Both the position numbers and the translations under genes were made by a program. A stretch of 6,021 nt of DNA, from positions 1 through 6,021 of the forward strand of contig PWGE01000436.1 of assembly GCA_003554345.1 (NCBI GenBank), written 5' to 3'. Each line of letters begins with the position of its first letter. Position 1 is the stretch's first letter. Positions 1 to 6,021 of this stretch are shown here, one piece after another. The notes under the pieces were generated by a model. It did not search any database, was not told where the DNA came from, and was given only the letters and a program-made list of their open reading frames with translations. The stretch is from T1SED10-198M sp003554345 [NCBI: Candidatus Sumerlaeota bacterium]. GTDB lineage: Bacteria > Sumerlaeota > T1SED10-198M.

Positions 1-351
1 GTTGAATTCCGTGGTCGGCGGGAGTTGTGACCCGTCGACAGCCATAACCGGCACGTCACTGAGAATCTCGCGCGCCCACTCGTTGATCTCCTCGTGGTTT
101 TCCCACCCATCGCTTTCCGTATGCGAGACGACGAAGCTACTCGCGGAATCAAACTCGTCGGTCGGGTACGCCCCGGGGTATGACGCTCGCTGCAACGCGT
201 CACGTATCTCCTCGCTCGTCCACTCCTCAGGCAGCCGCTGGAACGCGTCCTTATACCGCTCAACGACCCCCGTATCATCGTCCAGATACGCTTCGATCGC
301 CTCAACGTTGGACTCCAACTCGGTAGCGACTCCGTGTTTGTCGATCGGCAT
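1..351 (-). CDS. nurA: NurA-type DNA end-resection nuclease, N-terminal part (runs off the window)
   Basis: NurA is a Mn-dependent 5'-3' exonuclease and ssDNA endonuclease that works with the HerA hexameric translocase on ends opened by Mre11-Rad50. The reading frame is open from the ATG at 351-349 to base 1, giving 117 residues without a stop and with haloarchaeal acidic composition. The diagnostic motif is VMAVDGSQLPP at residues 102-112: a hydrophobic strand ending in Asp-Gly-Ser, which matches the NurA metal-binding Asp (here D106, codon 36-34). Residues 1-100 are an acidic helical lead-in, longer than I would expect before this motif. The start is well fixed: it overlaps the rad50 stop as TAATG, and GAGGTGA lies 10 bases upstream. 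The rest of the nuclease, including the later acidic residues, lies outside the window, so activity cannot be judged. Placement directly after mre11-rad50 matches the archaeal HerA-NurA-Mre11-Rad50 clusters and supports the call. Family assignment rests on one motif plus context. Confidence 0.82.
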   Translation of the reverse strand, partial: MPIDKHGVATELESNVEAIEAYLDDDTGVVERYKDAFQRLPEEWTSEEIRDALQRASYPGAYPTDEFDSASSFVVSHTESDGWENHEEINEWAREILSDVPVMAVDGSQLPPTTEFN

Positions 352-3062
352 TAATTCACGGTCACCTCTGACGACTGTTGGTCCTTCTCCACTGTGACCG
401 TGTAATCCGTCATCGAATCGAACGTCTGGTCGTGACTAATGACCGTGAGCTGCTCGAAACTATCCAATTGTTTCAACTGTGTTACCAAGTTCCGTTTCTT
501 CTCCCGGTCGAGATTTGCCGTCGGTTCATCCAGGAACGCCACACCGACCGACGCTAACTGCTCAAGGATGGCGAGTCGCACTGCGAGCGCAGCTGCCATC
601 TTCTCACCGCCGCTCAGCGTCGTGAATGACTTCCGAACGTCCGCATCGTGCACGACAATCTCGTAATCGCTCGTCCACTCTAACGTCTCCGCGGATGCGC
701 GACGGATCGTCCGGAACAACTCGTTTGCTCGCGTCCCAATCCGATCCGTGATTATCTCGCGCATCTTCGGCCCAGCCTCCCGAACGTTCTCACGCACCCA
801 CGTTGCGAACTGTTGATCCGCTTTCATCTCCTTCAACTGCTGGAGCATCTCCTGGCGCTCCGCCAACTTCGCCTCTAACTCCTCAATTTCCTCTCGCGTC
901 TCTTTTAGCGCTTCCTCCTTGTGCTCTAATGACCGCCGATCACCAGCCAGATCCTCTTTGAGCCCATCGATCTCCCTATCAAGTGCCTCGAACCGTTCTT
1001 CATCAAACGATGCTTGCGTCTCCTCCAGTTCAGCCTCGGTCTCCCCGAACTCAACTTCGAGATCCTCAAGCTCATCCCTCAATTCCTCGACCTTCCCTCG
1101 GCGTTCCTCCACCTGCGACGCCTGCTGCTCGTGCTGCAGATACGTCTGATACGCCGACTCCATCTGTTCCATCGTCCGCTTGACTTCATCGATCTCTTCA
1201 TCCAGCCCGTCGAACTCGTCTAGCTTGTCCCCAATCTCTTCAAGCGCCGACTGTTCTTCTTCTAACTCAGTACGCTTTTGTTCCAATTCCTCTGGTGCAT
1301 CCGCATGCTCGTCTACCCGGAACTCTGCCTTCTGATACTCGGTGTGCGCCTCTTCCAAGTCGTCGCGTTCAGCTTCGAAGTCCGGTAGTTCCTCTAACTC
1401 GTCTTCTAACTCCGATAACTCCGTCTCAGTCTCTTCCTTCTCATCCTCGAGTCCGTCGAGATCGTCTGCTAACGACTCAATCTTGTCCTGATGATGAGAG
1501 ATTTTCTCGACGCGTTGCTTGACCTCTTTTGCCGCTTCATGTCGCTCTCGTAGCTCTGCGAGCTGTTCACCGAGATCCGCGCGTTCCGCTTCAATCTCTT
1601 CGAGTCGGCCTTCTCGTTTCTCGATCGTCTTCGACCGATGCTGTTCGTTTAACGGCCGGTCGCATGTCGGGCACAGCGCATCGACGTCCGTATTACGCAA
1701 CCGGGTTAATTGCTCTTCGAGCCGCTCTCGTTCATTCCCAAGTTGCCTCCGATCCGCTTCCTTGTCGTTGATCTCGTCCGCGGTGTCTTCCGGGTCAGTC
1801 GTTTCCTCCCACTCTTCTTCGATCTCGGTAATCGTTTCTTCTAACGACTCAATCTCCGCCTCCGTCTCGTCGATTTCCGCCGTCAGTTCCTCAATCTCTT
1901 CCCGTAACTCCTCGACTTCGTCTTCGCGGTTCTTCAGCGACTCAATCCGCTCATCGAGTTCCTCATACCGTCCCTTATCAGCTTCAAGCGACTCCAGCGT
2001 CGCCTGAGCGTCCTTCAGCGTCTCCGACTGTTCCTCAAGTTGCTCAACTTGGAATTCGAGTGATTGAATCTCCTCTCTCTGTTCGCCACGTCGGTCTTCA
2101 AGCGCATCCCGCTCTTCCTCGTCCTCCTCTAACTCATCCAGTCTATCACTCGCGTCCTGATACTGCTGATACCCGTCACGGTTGGCCTCGCACTTCTCTT
2201 GGGCCTTCTCGGCTGCTTCAAGCTCTCCCTCAGCCGTTTCCAGTTGCCCCTCTGTCGACTCGATTTCCTGGTCTAACGACTCAACCTCGTTTTCCAGAGA
2301 CTCAATCTCCTCTTCGACCGCCTCTAACTCCTCGTACTCCGCTTCCTTCTCCGATAACTCACCCTCTTTTCGGTCGATACGCGACTCGATCTCCTCGACT
2401 GCTTCAGCCAACGATTCCGATTCCGCTCGCTTGTCCGGCAGGCTCTGCACCTCGCCGGTAAGCGTATCGATGTCCCCTCGAAGGTCCTGCTGTTGCTTCT
2501 CGATCGTTTCCGGGATGTCTTTGAGCCGCTTCCACGACTCTTCGTACGCATCGAGATTCAGCAACGCATCGAACGTCGATTGGCGGTTCCCCGCTGTCTG
2601 TGCAAAGTCAGAAAGGAATCGTGTCTGGGGCACCCCGATACAGGACTCCCAAAGACTCTGTAACTCGCCTGCGTCTTCCACGTCGAACCGAGCACACAGC
2701 CACTTCATCAACTCCGTTTTCGAATCGATGTCCTGATCTACCCACTCGTCACTTGCAGCGTCGTACCGATGCACCCCATAGTTTGCCCGGCCGACCGATC
2801 TGGTTACGCGGAATCGCTCCGTGCAGTCCTTCGTCTCTGTGTCGAACGTGACCTCAACGGTTCCCGAACTTGCGCCTTCCCGGACGAAATCCTTGTTGTT
2901 GAACGGGAGCGAATCGAATAACGCGAACCCGATCGCTTCCTGAATCGTCGATTTTCCTGCACCGTTCTTACCAAGAACCGCCGTCACACCACCCTCGATC
3001 GGGACCACTGTCTGGTCTTCGTACGACTTGATGTCTTCCAGCGTAACTTCCGTGATTCTCAT
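351..3062 (-). CDS. rad50: Rad50-type SMC-like ATPase (DNA repair), zinc hook present
   Basis: Rad50 is the ATP-dependent, DNA-end-binding and tethering partner of Mre11. At 903 residues it is of normal length for archaeal Rad50. Features in order: Walker A GKNGAGKST at 31-39; Q-loop near Q146; a Glu-rich coiled coil from about 180 to 463; zinc hook CPTC with Cys464 and Cys467 (codons at 1673-1671 and 1664-1662); a returning coiled coil from about 468 to 745; signature LSGGE at 816-820; Walker B VAFLDEP at 841-847 with D845 and E846; D-loop NLD at 850-852; H-loop His877. All ATPase elements are intact, and the hook sits almost exactly midway between the arms. The ATG overlaps the mre11 stop as ATGA, with GGTGA four bases upstream, implying coupled translation and balanced amounts of the two subunits. 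The N-terminus differs from the housekeeping haloarchaeal Rad50 as I recall it (GLNGSGKSS-type Walker A), so this is probably a divergent paralogue. Bacterial SbcC is the closest alternative name. Serine-rich open frames on the opposite strand are shadows of the Glu-rich coiled coil. Confidence 0.95.
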   Translation of the reverse strand: MRITEVTLEDIKSYEDQTVVPIEGGVTAVLGKNGAGKSTIQEAIGFALFDSLPFNNKDFVREGASSGTVEVTFDTETKDCTERFRVTRSVGRANYGVHRYDAASDEWVDQDIDSKTELMKWLCARFDVEDAGELQSLWESCIGVPQTRFLSDFAQTAGNRQSTFDALLNLDAYEESWKRLKDIPETIEKQQQDLRGDIDTLTGEVQSLPDKRAESESLAEAVEEIESRIDRKEGELSEKEAEYEELEAVEEEIESLENEVESLDQEIESTEGQLETAEGELEAAEKAQEKCEANRDGYQQYQDASDRLDELEEDEEERDALEDRRGEQREEIQSLEFQVEQLEEQSETLKDAQATLESLEADKGRYEELDERIESLKNREDEVEELREEIEELTAEIDETEAEIESLEETITEIEEEWEETTDPEDTADEINDKEADRRQLGNERERLEEQLTRLRNTDVDALCPTCDRPLNEQHRSKTIEKREGRLEEIEAERADLGEQLAELRERHEAAKEVKQRVEKISHHQDKIESLADDLDGLEDEKEETETELSELEDELEELPDFEAERDDLEEAHTEYQKAEFRVDEHADAPEELEQKRTELEEEQSALEEIGDKLDEFDGLDEEIDEVKRTMEQMESAYQTYLQHEQQASQVEERRGKVEELRDELEDLEVEFGETEAELEETQASFDEERFEALDREIDGLKEDLAGDRRSLEHKEEALKETREEIEELEAKLAERQEMLQQLKEMKADQQFATWVRENVREAGPKMREIITDRIGTRANELFRTIRRASAETLEWTSDYEIVVHDADVRKSFTTLSGGEKMAAALAVRLAILEQLASVGVAFLDEPTANLDREKKRNLVTQLKQLDSFEQLTVISHDQTFDSMTDYTVTVEKDQQSSEVTVN
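362..368 (-). promoter_or_regulatory. Shine-Dalgarno for nurA
   Basis: GAGGTGA on the minus strand lies inside the 3' end of rad50, 10 bases before the nurA ATG. It matches the archaeal anti-Shine-Dalgarno consensus (GGAGGTGATC) well. It decides the nurA start and suggests independent initiation in addition to coupling through the TAATG overlap. Confidence 0.75.
1469..2284 (-). repeat. Recurrent 12-bp motif inside the rad50 coiled coil
   Basis: The + strand sequence CTAACGACTCAA occurs exactly at 1469-1480, 1841-1852 and 2273-2284. All copies are in the same reading frame and encode (I/V)-E-S-L (residues 528-531, 404-407 and 260-263) with identical Glu, Ser and Leu codons, including TTA for Leu. 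Many shorter variants (CTCTAACTC, GACTCAATC) surround them. This is coiled-coil heptad repetition written with a restricted codon set, not a mobile repeat. Confidence 0.6.
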
Positions 3063-4561
3063 TCGTTCACCACCCCTGCAGCCTCATCAGCCTCAGTACG
3101 TGACTCCTCAGATCCCGCGGTTTCTGCAGTGTTGCCATCATCGAACGGATCTTCATCGATATCGAGGACTACGCCGTCGGCTAACTCCGGGAACAAGTTC
3201 CGTCGCGCCGAACTCACCGAGTCCTGAATATCTTCTACTGCTTCCTCAGCTTGCGCCATTTGGTGTGCGTTCCCCAGCACGTCAGCGACATCCGACGCGT
3301 TCTCAGCGTACATCGACTCCTGAGCGATCGTCTCGAACACACTATCTTCCAACGCTGCCGTGTTCAACTGCCCGTCTTTGAACACCTCGTCCTCATCGAT
3401 CTCCGAAATGAGTTGCTGCACGTTCGCTGTTCGGATCCCCGTGTTCACTTGGACGTACAACGCGTTACACACATCTTGCGCGTACGCTGCGAGCTCATCC
3501 GCCCGGAAATCCCCGCGACTACACTGCAGCGTCCCCGTGAACCGAAGATCAAGAATCGGATCCCGCGGCTCACCACGCGCCGCATACTTCGACTGCCGGC
3601 AGTACTCCGTGACCGCCGACTGCTCGCTTTGCACATATTCTTGGAACGCCGCTTCCAACTCGCCTGGCGACTCGTACGTCGTCACGTCGAACTCGATACG
3701 GTAGTACGGCCGGCGTTTCGACTCGTGATGAGCCACCTCAAAATCAACTGCGTTGTCGCCTTCGGACGGATCGGAGTTCAGCGAGACTGAATAATACCCG
3801 TGCTCCCAGTCGTCCCGACCTTCGCGCGTATTGTGCGCTTCAGGCGACCCCGGATTGTAGATCCAATCACTCGCCTCGTACCGCTTGTGAATATGTCCGA
3901 GCGCGAGATAATCCACAACCTCTTTGACGTCCCGAAGCTCAGCGTGTGTCACCGTCCCACCCAGCGTCGGCACCTCGTCTTCCATCCCGAAGTGGGCCAA
4001 CAACACCGTGAACGCTGGCTCACCGTGCTTCTCGTTCGTCGCTCGAATCCCGTTCGCCACTTGTTGAAGGGCTTTCCCGGCCTTCGCCCCACGCCACTGC
4101 AACCCGAACACACGAATCGAGCCATCGAACTCCTCGATATCGATATCGTAGAACCCTGCATACTCTCCCGGATTGTCAGGATTGTACCGCTCGAATCGTG
4201 CCGTTTCAGGGTCAGCATCCAGATCTGCTTTCAAAAACACGACGTGCCCGCGTTGATGTAGATAATTCAGCCACGTCACCTTACGTGGCGTCAGATTCTC
4301 GTCGTGATTCCCGCGCGACACCAGCACCGGGATATCATCCGGAACGCGCGCGAGTTCCCGTTCAGTTTGATCGAGAACTTTCGGGCGGAGATCCCGAGAG
4401 TGGAACAGATCTCCCGGTAACAGGATCGCATCAGTCTCCCGTTCCTCTATCATTTCCTGAAATGCGGCACGCGTGGAGGACATCATGTCGTCCTCGCGTT
4501 GGTTTAGTCCGTACTGTCGGTGGCCAAGGTGCGTGTCAGCGATATGCCCAAATGTTAACAT
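3059..4561 (-). CDS. mre11: Mre11-type DNA double-strand-break nuclease
   Basis: Mre11 is the Mn-dependent 3'-5' exonuclease and ssDNA endonuclease of the Mre11-Rad50 complex. All calcineurin-like phosphoesterase motifs are visible: D9-T-H11, GD51 with H54, GNHD at 84-87 (N85, H86), H190 in LLAHFG, and GHIH at 222-225. Residues about 1-260 are the catalytic domain and about 284-380 the capping domain. Residues about 395-460 probably form the helical Rad50-binding segment, followed by an acidic low-complexity tail to residue 500, typical of halophile proteins. At 500 residues it is somewhat long because of this tail. The ATG at 4561 is chosen because the first catalytic motif follows within nine residues, as in the family; AGGAT nine bases upstream is only a weak ribosome binding site. 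It heads the mre11-rad50-nurA cassette and overlaps rad50 by four bases. The opening reads HIADTHLGHRQYG, whereas the housekeeping haloarchaeal protein, as I recall, reads HTGDTHLGYQQYH. This suggests an accessory paralogue. SbcD is the bacterial equivalent. Confidence 0.95.
   Translation of the reverse strand: MLTFGHIADTHLGHRQYGLNQREDDMMSSTRAAFQEMIEERETDAILLPGDLFHSRDLRPKVLDQTERELARVPDDIPVLVSRGNHDENLTPRKVTWLNYLHQRGHVVFLKADLDADPETARFERYNPDNPGEYAGFYDIDIEEFDGSIRVFGLQWRGAKAGKALQQVANGIRATNEKHGEPAFTVLLAHFGMEDEVPTLGGTVTHAELRDVKEVVDYLALGHIHKRYEASDWIYNPGSPEAHNTREGRDDWEHGYYSVSLNSDPSEGDNAVDFEVAHHESKRRPYYRIEFDVTTYESPGELEAAFQEYVQSEQSAVTEYCRQSKYAARGEPRDPILDLRFTGTLQCSRGDFRADELAAYAQDVCNALYVQVNTGIRTANVQQLISEIDEDEVFKDGQLNTAALEDSVFETIAQESMYAENASDVADVLGNAHQMAQAEEAVEDIQDSVSSARRNLFPELADGVVLDIDEDPFDDGNTAETAGSEESRTEADEAAGVVNE
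3067..3071 (-). promoter_or_regulatory. Shine-Dalgarno for rad50
   Basis: GGTGA on the minus strand (within GGGTGGTGA) lies inside the last codons of mre11, four bases before the rad50 ATG. It supports the start that overlaps the mre11 stop as ATGA. The spacing is a little short, and reinitiation after mre11 may contribute. Confidence 0.55.
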
Positions 4562-4586
4562 TGTGAGTGAATCCTGAGCAGCCCGT

Positions 4587-4605
4587 GTTCGGTCGAGACC
4601 GGAAC
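4587..4605. repeat. Inverted repeat upstream of mre11, possible operator
   Basis: The + strand reads GTTCGGTCGAGACCGGAAC. The perfect core is CGGTC-GA-GACCG at 4590-4601, and it extends to GTTC/GAAC outer arms with one extra G in the right arm. It lies 26-44 bases before the mre11 ATG. It would overlap the transcription start if the TATA-like element at 4631-4626 is used, which is a usual position for an archaeal repressor operator. It could also form a short RNA hairpin in the leader. A chance palindrome of this size is possible. Confidence 0.4.
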
Positions 4606-4625
4606 CAAATTACGTGACTGAGGGT

Positions 4626-4657
4626 CTATAACTACATTTGACCGGACAGCTATTAAA
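4626..4657 (-). promoter_or_regulatory. Candidate core promoter for mre11-rad50-nurA
   Basis: Two minus-strand TATA-like elements are present: TTTAATA at 4657-4651 and TTATAG at 4631-4626. With archaeal TATA-to-start spacing of about 25 bases they would place transcription starts near 4629 or 4602, giving leaders of about 40-70 bases rather than the leaderless transcripts common in haloarchaea. Neither has a convincing purine-rich BRE upstream, so the call is weak. Read-through from the PIN gene cannot be excluded. Confidence 0.3.
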
Positions 4658-4753
4658 CATCAGACAATCAAAGTGAAAGTGAAACTCGGGTTTAAAACAG
4701 TAACACTCGCCGCGTTGTTCACTAGCTGCAAGCCAATTAGTGGAACGGCGCTG

Positions 4754-5797
4754 CTACAGTTCTTCGAATTGCTTAACGAGTGTAACATCGCGTTTGATTC
4801 GCGGCTCAACGACGGGGCTGCGGACATCAATGTCGAGTTGTTCTCGCTGCCACTCCAATCCCGTCTTGCCCGTCCAGACGCCGTACAGCGTGACCTTCGG
4901 GAGCACGAGCACGCCGAACATCACCGTCATCACGTAGAGCGTGTTCACGATGTCCACCCAAGGAGCAGTCGCTTTCCGCGGAAGATCGACTGGGAACGCG
5001 ACATGGTGTGCCCAGATATCCTGTGATCGGGCTCTGTCGACAAACCCGTAGTCGTTGCTGAAGAGGAGTATTCGTTTGCGATTCTCCTTGTCGTAGCGTT
5101 CGTAGGCATCGACGATGTCGGCGTCGCCGGTCTCAGACGGGACGATATCGACCGCCCGGTTTGCCATGCGATCACGGAACTCGTAGAGTCCCAGAACACC
5201 CATCCGGTTTGCCCCAGCTGGCTGGTCCTTCAGTCGAGCAAACTCCTGTCCGAACGCATCTTCGAGGCTCCGTGTCGAGAACCGATTGTAGTACCAATCG
5301 AGTTCCTCCTTGACGCCACCCGAGAGCGCGTACCCGTTTGCCGGCGGCCGACCGCTGCCGTCCGTCGAGCCTGTAACAGGGTCGATGTCGAGAATCTCCG
5401 GAATCCGGAATCCGAAAAGGTTCGTGTCATAGGCGACCATGACAGGATTGTGCCCCGCCGTCAGGTCGGGATGCGTGTGCCGATCGAGAAACGAGTCAAT
5501 TTCGGTCTGGTTCTCTGGGTCGACAAGCCCACCTGCGACCGCCGCTTTGACGTAGTCAGTATGTCCGGGAAGGTCCTCGTACGGGTCCTCACCGAACTGC
5601 TGGTGGACTGTGTCCCGACTCTCACGGTAACTCATCGCTCCCTGTGTGAATCGGACTGTGCTCTCCTGATAGTCCCCAAGTTCGATTCGGAACAGTTCAC
5701 CAACCTCTTCATACGGATGTTTCACGGGGATACTCGTCACCCCGCTGTCGTAGAGTGCATTGAGCACGACAGTAAGGTGTCGACGTGAAATCTCCAT
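4754..5797 (-). CDS. PIN-domain nuclease with an uncharacterised N-terminal extension
   Basis: This is a predicted metal-dependent ribonuclease of the PIN fold. Acidic PIN positions can be followed in order: D124 in VAYDTN (first strand); E164 and E165 in GVKEELDWY; D225, D227 and D230 in GDADIVDAY; D249 in LLFSNDYGFVDRA with D254 after it. Residues 1-115 come before the PIN fold, match no family I recognise, and make the protein (347 aa) much longer than a VapC toxin (about 130 aa). A hydrophobic stretch, residues about 285-306, follows the fold and could be a buried strand or membrane-contacting segment. The ATG at 5797 is supported by GGAGGTC five bases upstream and by the TAATG overlap with the preceding gene; the stop is TAG at 4756-4754. 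Close coupling to a CARF-like protein suggests that the pair acts as sensor and nuclease. There is no small antitoxin gene next to it, which argues against an ordinary VapBC pair. Substrate and trigger are unknown; the PIN call rests on motif order. Confidence 0.8.
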   Translation of the reverse strand: MEISRRHLTVVLNALYDSGVTSIPVKHPYEEVGELFRIELGDYQESTVRFTQGAMSYRESRDTVHQQFGEDPYEDLPGHTDYVKAAVAGGLVDPENQTEIDSFLDRHTHPDLTAGHNPVMVAYDTNLFGFRIPEILDIDPVTGSTDGSGRPPANGYALSGGVKEELDWYYNRFSTRSLEDAFGQEFARLKDQPAGANRMGVLGLYEFRDRMANRAVDIVPSETGDADIVDAYERYDKENRKRILLFSNDYGFVDRARSQDIWAHHVAFPVDLPRKATAPWVDIVNTLYVMTVMFGVLVLPKVTLYGVWTGKTGLEWQREQLDIDVRSPVVEPRIKRDVTLVKQFEEL

Positions 5798-6021
5798 TAG
5801 ACGACCTCCGTGAAATCGATCAACTCAACCGCAGGACGCGGGATGGTCGGAAACACTTGCCCGTAGAACTCGCTCGAATCCAGTAGCAAATAGAACACGT
5901 GGTCGGCCCCGTACCGAATCCCCGCCTGGAACGCGATCGCCGACATAAACTTTCGACCAGGAGGGATGTCGACGGCAACGTGGTCGTCCTCGCCGACTCG
6001 CTCAATCCCCGCTCGAAAAAA
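5797..6021 (-). CDS. CARF-like protein, C-terminal 74 residues (5' end outside window)
   Basis: The frame is open from base 6021 to TAA at 5799-5797, giving 74 residues of normal coding character. The segment VAVDIPPGRKFMSAIAFQAG (residues 15-34), followed by ADHVFYLLL (39-47), has the shape of the CARF-domain core: a hydrophobic strand, a D-x-x-G-G/R-K-x-M-like loop and helix, then a strand ending in Tyr-Leu. CARF domains bind cyclic oligoadenylates or related nucleotides and control attached or partner nucleases, mostly in type III CRISPR systems. The protein ends about 27 residues after the last recognisable strand, so no effector domain follows the CARF-like part. An effector could precede it or be the adjoining PIN protein, whose start overlaps this stop by one base (TAATG). 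The call rests on one motif in a fragment; another Rossmann-like domain is possible. Its ligand cannot be inferred, and no cas gene or CRISPR array is in the window. Confidence 0.55.
   Translation of the reverse strand, partial: FFRAGIERVGEDDHVAVDIPPGRKFMSAIAFQAGIRYGADHVFYLLLDSSEFYGQVFPTIPRPAVELIDFTEVV
5803..5809 (-). promoter_or_regulatory. Shine-Dalgarno for the PIN gene
   Basis: GGAGGTC on the minus strand sits within the last codons of the upstream CARF-like gene, five bases before the PIN-gene ATG. It is a good match to the archaeal consensus and fixes this start over internal Met codons. Confidence 0.7.

Follow-up and report, generated by a model that had tools for sequence, protein, structure and literature searches.

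What kind of system does an mre11-rad50 pair belong to when it does not match the haloarchaeal housekeeping pair, and would it serve repair or defence? This question is raised by the 6,021-nucleotide contig PWGE01000436.1, which was analysed over its whole length and is termed the window below. The first-pass annotation had treated the unit as a pair of genes; in relatives, the actual unit is a cassette of five co-directional genes, mre11-rad50-nurA-X-herA, and the window ends inside nurA. This cassette is carried by some haloarchaea beside their own divergent housekeeping Mre11-Rad50. We consider it probable that it represents the canonical archaeal Mre11-Rad50-NurA-HerA machine in a mobile, accessory form, which would act as a DNA-end-degrading defence module. 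Beyond the earlier annotation, the present analysis adds the five-gene cassette itself, its ancestral identity, its mobility, its defence-gene surroundings, the barrel protein X, and a recurrent neighbour, prokaryotic Argonaute (pAgo).

In the window, all cassette genes lie on the minus strand: mre11 (3059..4561; 500 amino acids [aa]), rad50 (351..3062; 903 aa), and the first 117 codons of nurA (1..351), the 3' end of which is lost at the contig end. The first two genes overlap by 4 bases, and the rad50 stop overlaps the nurA start by 1 base. Mre11 begins with MLTFGHIADTHLGHRQYG and displays the phosphoesterase motifs ADTH (residue 8), GDLF (50), GNHD (84), AHFG (189), and GHIH (222), with a Pfam Metallophos match at 5.4e-12. 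Rad50 contains Walker A (GKNGAGKST), a CPTC zinc hook, an LSGGE signature, and Walker B (DEPT), matching NCBIfam Rad50 PRK03918 at 1.7e-72 (244.7 bits of a 700-bit cut-off). All motifs searched for were thus present in both proteins, and the earlier claim of intact catalytic motifs holds. The nurA piece scored 204 bits against a NurA model built from relatives; by itself it gave no Pfam match at E 0.1, and the full-length NurA of one relative (L002) matched Pfam NurA PF09376 at 1.5e-23. The interval originally marked, 351-4561, is correct for the pair but too short for the locus, as it leaves out nurA (1-351) downstream and, upstream, both a PIN gene and a CARF-like piece.

The cassette is recurrent and well ordered. 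All 17 named haloarchaeal genomes with this Mre11 (17 loci, 75-81% identity to the window protein) display the order mre11-rad50-nurA-X-herA. In an even draw of 391 genomes across the haloarchaeal class, a profile search detected NurA in 41, inside the cassette in every instance. All five genes stand in order in the stretch read for 39 of these 41, including one in which herA ends at the contig end (L004) and two in which one gene is split into two open reading frames (herA in L002, mre11 in L017); the other two run over a record end (G249, continued at its other end in L092, and G097, with mre11 at the opposite end of the contig). With plasmid records included, the count comes to 48 distinct cassettes in addition to the window; all five genes were seen in 46 of them, and the other two lie at record ends. 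Linkage of mre11, rad50, nurA, and herA is therefore established through relatives (46/48), since the window shows only three of the genes before its end. A place on a Halobacterium sp. DL1 plasmid (L094) was left out of this count; none of the other four genes is present there, and its relative of the cassette mre11 is shortened. A similar shortened relative, with a 417-aa open frame, lies at G080:C2:300267-301415, in a genome without a NurA match.

Among the open-access PMC papers listed, none was found to describe the cassette in haloarchaea; the terms NurA, Mre11, and Rad50 are absent from the text of PMC2743648, as are NurA and Rad50 from that of PMC4158269. Elsewhere in print, NurA and HerA of Natrinema altunense 4.1R are listed among repair genes (PMC9995536), and haloarchaeal nurA and herA are called "not apparent" (PMC12977600), even though both are present in the cassette.

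That the pair differs from the haloarchaeal housekeeping pair, as first proposed, is evident from both model scores and phylogeny. On the haloarchaeal NCBIfam models, the window proteins fall below both cut-offs, at 45.8 bits for Mre11_Halo (cut-off 550) and 184.7 bits for Rad50_Halo (cut-off 1000). A second pair was likewise anticipated: 16 of the 17 named carriers encode, at another place, an Mre11 above the Mre11_Halo cut-off, and the 17th (Halocatena) has a divergent housekeeping Mre11 scoring 413 bits. In each of the 17 housekeeping stretches, rad50 comes after mre11, and cassette profiles found no nurA, X, or herA there. The phylogenetic check suggested in the first-pass annotation places the pair outside the housekeeping clade for both proteins; neither of the two outcomes named there as refuting was observed. 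In the Mre11 tree (110 rows), the 47 cassette rows form one clade, with support of 100 in the Shimodaira-Hasegawa-like approximate likelihood-ratio test (SH-aLRT), and group in turn with 23 non-haloarchaeal rows (97). The 17 housekeeping rows fall in another part of the tree, together with two more haloarchaeal copies and two rows from outside haloarchaea (99). The Rad50 tree (108 rows, built from the protein ends only) recovers the cassette clade (99) and its union with the 23 non-haloarchaeal rows (92), again with the housekeeping proteins outside. Both proteins thereby cluster with non-haloarchaeal members of the HerA-NurA-Mre11-Rad50 group. As these are quick trees without bootstrap that drew long-branch and composition warnings, it is uncertain which group is the immediate sister of the cassette clade, and the position of the pair outside the housekeeping clade is the firmer point.

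The housekeeping motifs given in the first-pass annotation were partly right, with H.GDTHLGYQQYH occurring in 3 and GLNGSGKSS in 9 of the 17 housekeeping pairs. The Walker A sequence GKNGAGKST is present in the window Rad50 as reported but is no mark of its kind, as GKNGAGKS occurs in only 2 of 47 cassette Rad50s (the window and L130) and GENGAGKS in 26; among the cassette Mre11s, H.ADTHLGHRQYG is found in 25 of 47. A third kind of haloarchaeal Mre11 was also encountered, at G072:C9:92303-93352 and G076:C23:54607-55683 (L058 and L057), in two genomes that carry the cassette; it scores 279-290 bits to Mre11_Halo, and a rad50 relative adjoins it.

The same five-gene order exists outside haloarchaea. 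Among non-haloarchaeal genomes of the same phylum, it was seen in three of three loci (L200-L202) and in 14 of 20 others, the remaining six comprising five with mre11-rad50 only and one ended by its contig; 17 of the 23 non-haloarchaeal tree rows thus show it. The label non-haloarchaeal was given to these 23 rows on the basis of their much less acidic Mre11s (net acidic fraction not above 0.080, vs. at least 0.093 in the 47 cassette and at least 0.122 in the 17 housekeeping proteins). Still other loci contain herA-mre11-rad50 (e.g., L280, L283, and L287). A published reconstruction infers that nurA was lost, and the herA and mre11 families replaced, on the lineage leading to the common ancestor of Hikarchaeia and haloarchaea (PMC7599335). 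Given this reconstruction and the occurrence of the operon outside haloarchaea, the cassette is best read as the ancestral machine, either kept by a few haloarchaea or regained, both of which fit these data, and now accessory. Of separate note, a CxxC motif was found in 0 of 23 non-haloarchaeal Rad50 relatives (e.g., L200, L201, and L313; some of these open reading frames are short) vs. 47 of 47 cassette Rad50s; some of the non-haloarchaeal proteins have wider-spaced cysteines mid-protein, such as CPFIQETC.

Several lines of evidence indicate that the cassette moves between haloarchaeal lineages. For 16 genomes with both copies (120 pairs), the cassette proteins are more alike than their housekeeping counterparts in 113 pairs for Mre11 and 114 for Rad50. 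Between Halovenus salina and Halosimplex salinum, for instance, cassette Mre11 and Rad50 are 99.6% and 99.9% identical, compared to 66.3% and 57.2% for the housekeeping proteins. The six exception pairs shown fall within Natrialbaceae or within Halorubrum. There is still some vertical signal, seen as a weak correlation between the identities of cassette and housekeeping proteins (Spearman 0.24, p 0.009). In 16 of 16 genomes, the cassette also has a lower GC content than the housekeeping stretch. The cassette is found both on complete plasmids, with four such records (Natrinema zhouii, halophilic archaeon DL31, Halobaculum, and Halorussus), and on chromosomes (Halovenus salina and Salinibaculum litoreum). 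The plasmid or island location raised in the first-pass annotation is thus borne out in relatives, by these plasmid records and by flanks containing defence genes. An origin from viruses was considered and set aside, as relatives of mre11 or rad50 turned up at 12 loci in the one scan of viral contigs, at no more than 28% identity, and the cassette profiles detected neither nurA nor X nor herA at these loci. The Natrinema zhouii plasmid (L090) also has, approximately 5.5 kb downstream of the cassette, a pair annotated as a "DNA repair exonuclease" and an AAA ATPase (27379-29515).

The surroundings of the cassette are rich in known defence genes relative to the single control set of housekeeping loci. 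At E≤1e-20, the 91 flank proteins taken from 24 of the 48 cassette loci matched 111 PADLOC families, the first 25 of which were listed, compared with 8 families for the 77 taken from 17 housekeeping loci; the tool counts families and gives no total of matching proteins. The commonest single match involves 3 of 91 cassette-flank proteins vs. 13 of 77 control proteins (HEase and IetA models, 13 each). Those control matches correspond to DNA polymerase B in three of three and AAA ATPase in four of four matching proteins scanned, and the control matches to mad3, MkoA, and DpdJ concern one protein each. With the scanned proteins behind the two commonest control matches being polymerase and AAA proteins, the cassette-control difference is therefore one of kind and diversity.

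Cassette-flank families include pAgo, TmtA, HEC-06, Orf5, Old, AriA, Shango, and BREX/DISARM-type proteins; OLD/GmrSD-like genes are also among the defence neighbours, as is the CARF-PIN type protein in the window. Shango (SngABC), a separate three-gene system, immediately precedes the cassette of the Natrinema zhouii plasmid (L018; PADLOC). On the DL31 plasmid (L093), three upstream genes have the same lengths as those of Shango, and two of them cluster with SngA and SngC of L018. TmtA lies near the cassette in L003 and L005 (and in L130 by clustering), OLD/AriA and HEC-06/Orf5 types in L006 (and in L016 by clustering), and DrmMI with a DrmD/BrxHII-like helicase in L015. An HEase match in the flank of L143 may be of the same kind as the control polymerase matches. 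In addition, a protein of approximately 239 aa is encoded upstream of the cassette in five loci (L002, 8089-8805; L010, 8086-8805; and relatives in L013, L017, and L131); it has no Pfam match in L002, a pAgo adjoins it in four of the five loci, and a DUF2797 protein and an RNase H_2-HHH protein are each found near it in four loci.

Among these neighbours, pAgo was detected by a pAgo profile beside 9 of 48 cassettes and none of 17 control loci. In L002, L010, L013, L126, and L131, the pAgos of which are close relatives, it lies 2.7 kb upstream on the opposite strand. In L152, it is on the same strand, with a PLD protein between. L149 and L150, which belong to the first branch to split off in the cassette clade of the Mre11 tree, have it on the same strand as mre11, which it precedes by 25 bases. 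In L136, likewise on the same strand, the distance is 23 bases, and an in-frame stop interrupts the pAgo gene. The pAgo neighbours come from several branches of the cassette tree, and those inspected by eye have catalytic-looking DEDX residues. A PLD-type protein occurs near 19 of 48 cassettes and no controls. This protein was considered as a relative of AgaP, the nuclease that, with a haloarchaeal long-A pAgo, forms the APAP system reported to restrict plasmids and a virus (PMC11442185), and this identity was rejected: none of 20 cluster members has the split motif HxK(x)30-70GSxN, nor specifically HxK(x)49GSxN, with 14 displaying a 15-residue spacing and six partial members having neither. 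The main text of that source mentions no NurA, Rad50, HerA, or SMC.

Protein X is about 157-235 aa long, and the one sequence scanned had no Pfam or NCBIfam match. An AlphaFold2 model from 41 sequences gave a predicted local distance difference test (pLDDT) score of 86.7 and a predicted template-modelling (pTM) score of 0.81. Foldseek returned 25 PDB rows at E≤0.001; HerA or a HerA complex is named in the titles of 23, and the other two (8wiv) are titled only "a bacterial protein"; the match to T. kodakarensis HerA-NurA was at 1.4e-5, and template-modelling (TM) scores normalised by the length of X were 0.32-0.43. VIA-align 2 gave Z 11.9 to the HerA N-terminal part in HerA-DUF4297, 9.2 to TdpAB, and 8.5 to the first F1-ATPase. 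On the strength of these Foldseek and VIA-align 2 matches, the predicted fold of X is like the HerA N-terminal barrel, which we take to be the HAS barrel, plus helices. The resemblance is one of fold alone, as relatedness to HerA by sequence was rejected (hhalign vs. cassette HerA, probability 0.2, E 0.27; nothing significant in a PDB sequence search). That X docks on HerA or NurA is a guess.

In the defence module that we favour, Mre11-Rad50 would bind and trim or open foreign DNA ends, whether on linear DNA of viruses or plasmids or at breaks introduced by a nuclease encoded next to the cassette, for example Argonaute. HerA would then pump duplex DNA, NurA would cut both strands, and X would perhaps be mounted on HerA-NurA, such that ends would be degraded rather than resected. 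In support, T. kodakarensis HerA-NurA is reported to degrade both strands, and an antiviral role was proposed by its authors (PMC12977600). As an extra, mobile copy present in approximately one-tenth of the sampled haloarchaea often lies among virus-defence genes, the data suggest that repair machinery has been reused for defence.

Certain observations weigh against this reading. Islands collect passengers, and neighbours therefore prove no shared function; several cassette flanks are without a recognisable defence gene, and of ten such proteins only four matched a defence family once HEase was set aside. Each defence family on its own is uncommon, the most frequent (3/91) falling below the control AAA/polymerase matches (13/77), and PADLOC gave no match for cassette NurA, X, or Mre11. 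No pAgo is present in the fetched flanks of 39 of the 48 cassettes, nor in the window, and the genome-level link is weak: a pAgo match, in one case to a fragment, occurs in 10 of the 41 genomes with the cassette and in 43 of the other 350 (Fisher p 0.035). Those counts, from a protein query used after a Pfam Piwi search had missed known pAgos, are lower bounds, because the query missed the pAgos beside the cassettes of G347 and G405. Moreover, the L200-L202 operons lie among genes that look ordinary by eye, which fits repair, and HerA-NurA is reported to be essential in Sulfolobus (PMC7776575), where its function is therefore not only defence.

These last points are the ones that an accessory repair role would explain, i.e., a second end-resection machine for recombination or damage survival of haloarchaea or their plasmids, spread with islands. 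In the same source, HerA-NurA is described with Rad50-Mre11 as break-repair machinery (PMC7776575); the same operon order exists in non-haloarchaeal genomes, and the flanks devoid of recognisable defence genes are consistent with such a role. We nonetheless regard it as rather unlikely, as carriers already own a housekeeping pair, presence is patchy (41/391), the many defence families of cassette flanks are nearly absent from housekeeping loci, and three cassettes have a pAgo directly upstream on the same strand. A narrower proposal, itself a special form of the defence-module reading with which its odds overlap, would make the cassette a dedicated Argonaute partner, i.e., an archaeal RecBCD counterpart making guides for, or finishing DNA cut by, a long pAgo; those lacking a pAgo would work with a different nuclease, e.g., the PLD protein, Shango, or CARF-PIN. 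The recurrence of pAgo on several branches of the cassette tree, its apparent catalytic residues, and the frequency of the PLD protein are in keeping with this idea, and pAgo reviewers have suggested that RecBCD may process guides or targets (PMC6279821). The partnership is still unlikely in our view, since cassettes and pAgos mostly live apart (10 shared genomes of 41 and 53), five of the nine neighbouring pAgos are close relatives of one another and lie 2.7 kb off on the opposite strand, and another of the nine is broken.

Even less plausible, to the point of being very improbable, is a function in recombination or protection of the plasmids or integrative elements bearing the cassette. Phage T4 gp46-gp47 is an Mre11-Rad50 pair and provides a parallel, and the four complete plasmids agree with it; chromosomal copies in Halovenus salina and Salinibaculum litoreum speak against it, as do the 12 distant viral loci, where the cassette profiles detected none of nurA, X, and herA. 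In a broader proposition, the ancestral Mre11-Rad50-NurA-X-HerA machine, lost as housekeeping in haloarchaea, would have become an interchangeable RecBCD-like immunity core for swapped-in Argonaute, PLD, Shango, and CARF-PIN partners. We find this doubtful; were it true, such a core would supply guides to, or finish the work of, different sensors and nucleases. Whether HerA-NurA acts in repair or immunity is described as an open question in PMC12977600, and the reported essentiality of its genes in Sulfolobus hampers genetics there (PMC7776575). A mobile, patchy copy carried beside the host's own Mre11-Rad50 pair would render repair vs. immunity testable by plain deletion together with virus or plasmid challenge.

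Read along the minus strand, the window holds, in order, a CARF-like piece and a PIN gene, then a 192-base gap between open reading frames (4562..4753), presumably the promoter region, followed by mre11, rad50, and the nurA start. The PIN-type nuclease protein (4754..5797; 347 aa), which lies outside the conserved cassette, matches PADLOC CARF_m1--CARF_PIN at 1.9e-22 (residues 2-323 on profile 171-453). The piece before it (5797..6021) is a 74-codon C-terminal remnant with its 5' end lost at the contig end, overlapping the PIN start. It is labelled a probable CARF protein on account of weak, sub-cut-off Pfam matches (Cas_NE0113, 0.0081; CARF_Card1, 0.077) and the CARF+PIN nature of the PADLOC family of the adjoining gene. 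Across 4754-6021, the two are separate, overlapping genes, whereas the PADLOC family is a single CARF-PIN protein; together, they may perhaps constitute a cyclic-nucleotide-responsive nuclease.

The window is the whole of contig C76 in a 454-contig metagenome-assembled genome (MAG; 87.66% complete, 4.32% contaminated) that is bacterial, with DnaA, DnaN, RecF, TrmD, GatB, and SMC_prok_B above curated cut-offs. Its composition was compared to 20 fetched MAG contigs, of which 18 were readable and two masked. The window has a GC content of 0.560 vs. 0.342-0.467 in the readable contigs, a tetranucleotide distance of 0.647 to the MAG mean (at most 0.335 for MAG contigs) vs. 0.112 to the mean of 17 haloarchaeal cassette stretches, and proteins with 24% acidic residues vs. 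10-17%. On these grounds, the contig is haloarchaeal and misbinned; its MAG thus cannot reveal whether the host has another mre11-rad50. No Mre11_Halo or Rad50_Halo match above cut-off was found in the MAG; an archaeal 16S model also found no match, which is uninformative on the host. The other Mre11-Rad50-like pair in the MAG (C428, L087) is below every NCBIfam cut-off and within bacterial DNA, and therefore carries no information on the haloarchaeal host.

The cassette resembles several known systems. With the haloarchaeal housekeeping Mre11-Rad50 it shares the two-gene core and main motifs, but it belongs to another clade and adds the three genes that the profiles did not find in the 17 housekeeping stretches. 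APAP (PMC11442185) is similar in that a long pAgo and a PLD-type protein occur beside some cassettes; however, HxK and GSxN are 15 residues apart in the cassette PLD protein and approximately 49 apart in AgaP, and the long-A pAgo itself is missing from the window. Shango was seen beside only two cassettes, that of the Natrinema zhouii plasmid, which it directly precedes, and that of DL31, where it was recognised from gene lengths and clustering. SIR2-HerA and HerA-DUF4297, the HerA-nuclease defence systems cited in PMC12977600, likewise couple a HerA-type DNA pump to a nuclease, and the predicted fold of X resembles the N-terminal domain of these HerAs; in the cassette, though, the nuclease is NurA, and Mre11-Rad50 belongs to the set. 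The canonical archaeal herA-mre11-rad50-nurA operon described for thermophiles (PMC7776575) has the same four linked proteins, and the cassette Mre11 and Rad50 cluster with non-haloarchaeal members; from it the haloarchaeal version differs in being mobile and accessory rather than housekeeping, in its order mre11-rad50-nurA-X-herA, and in its additional protein X.

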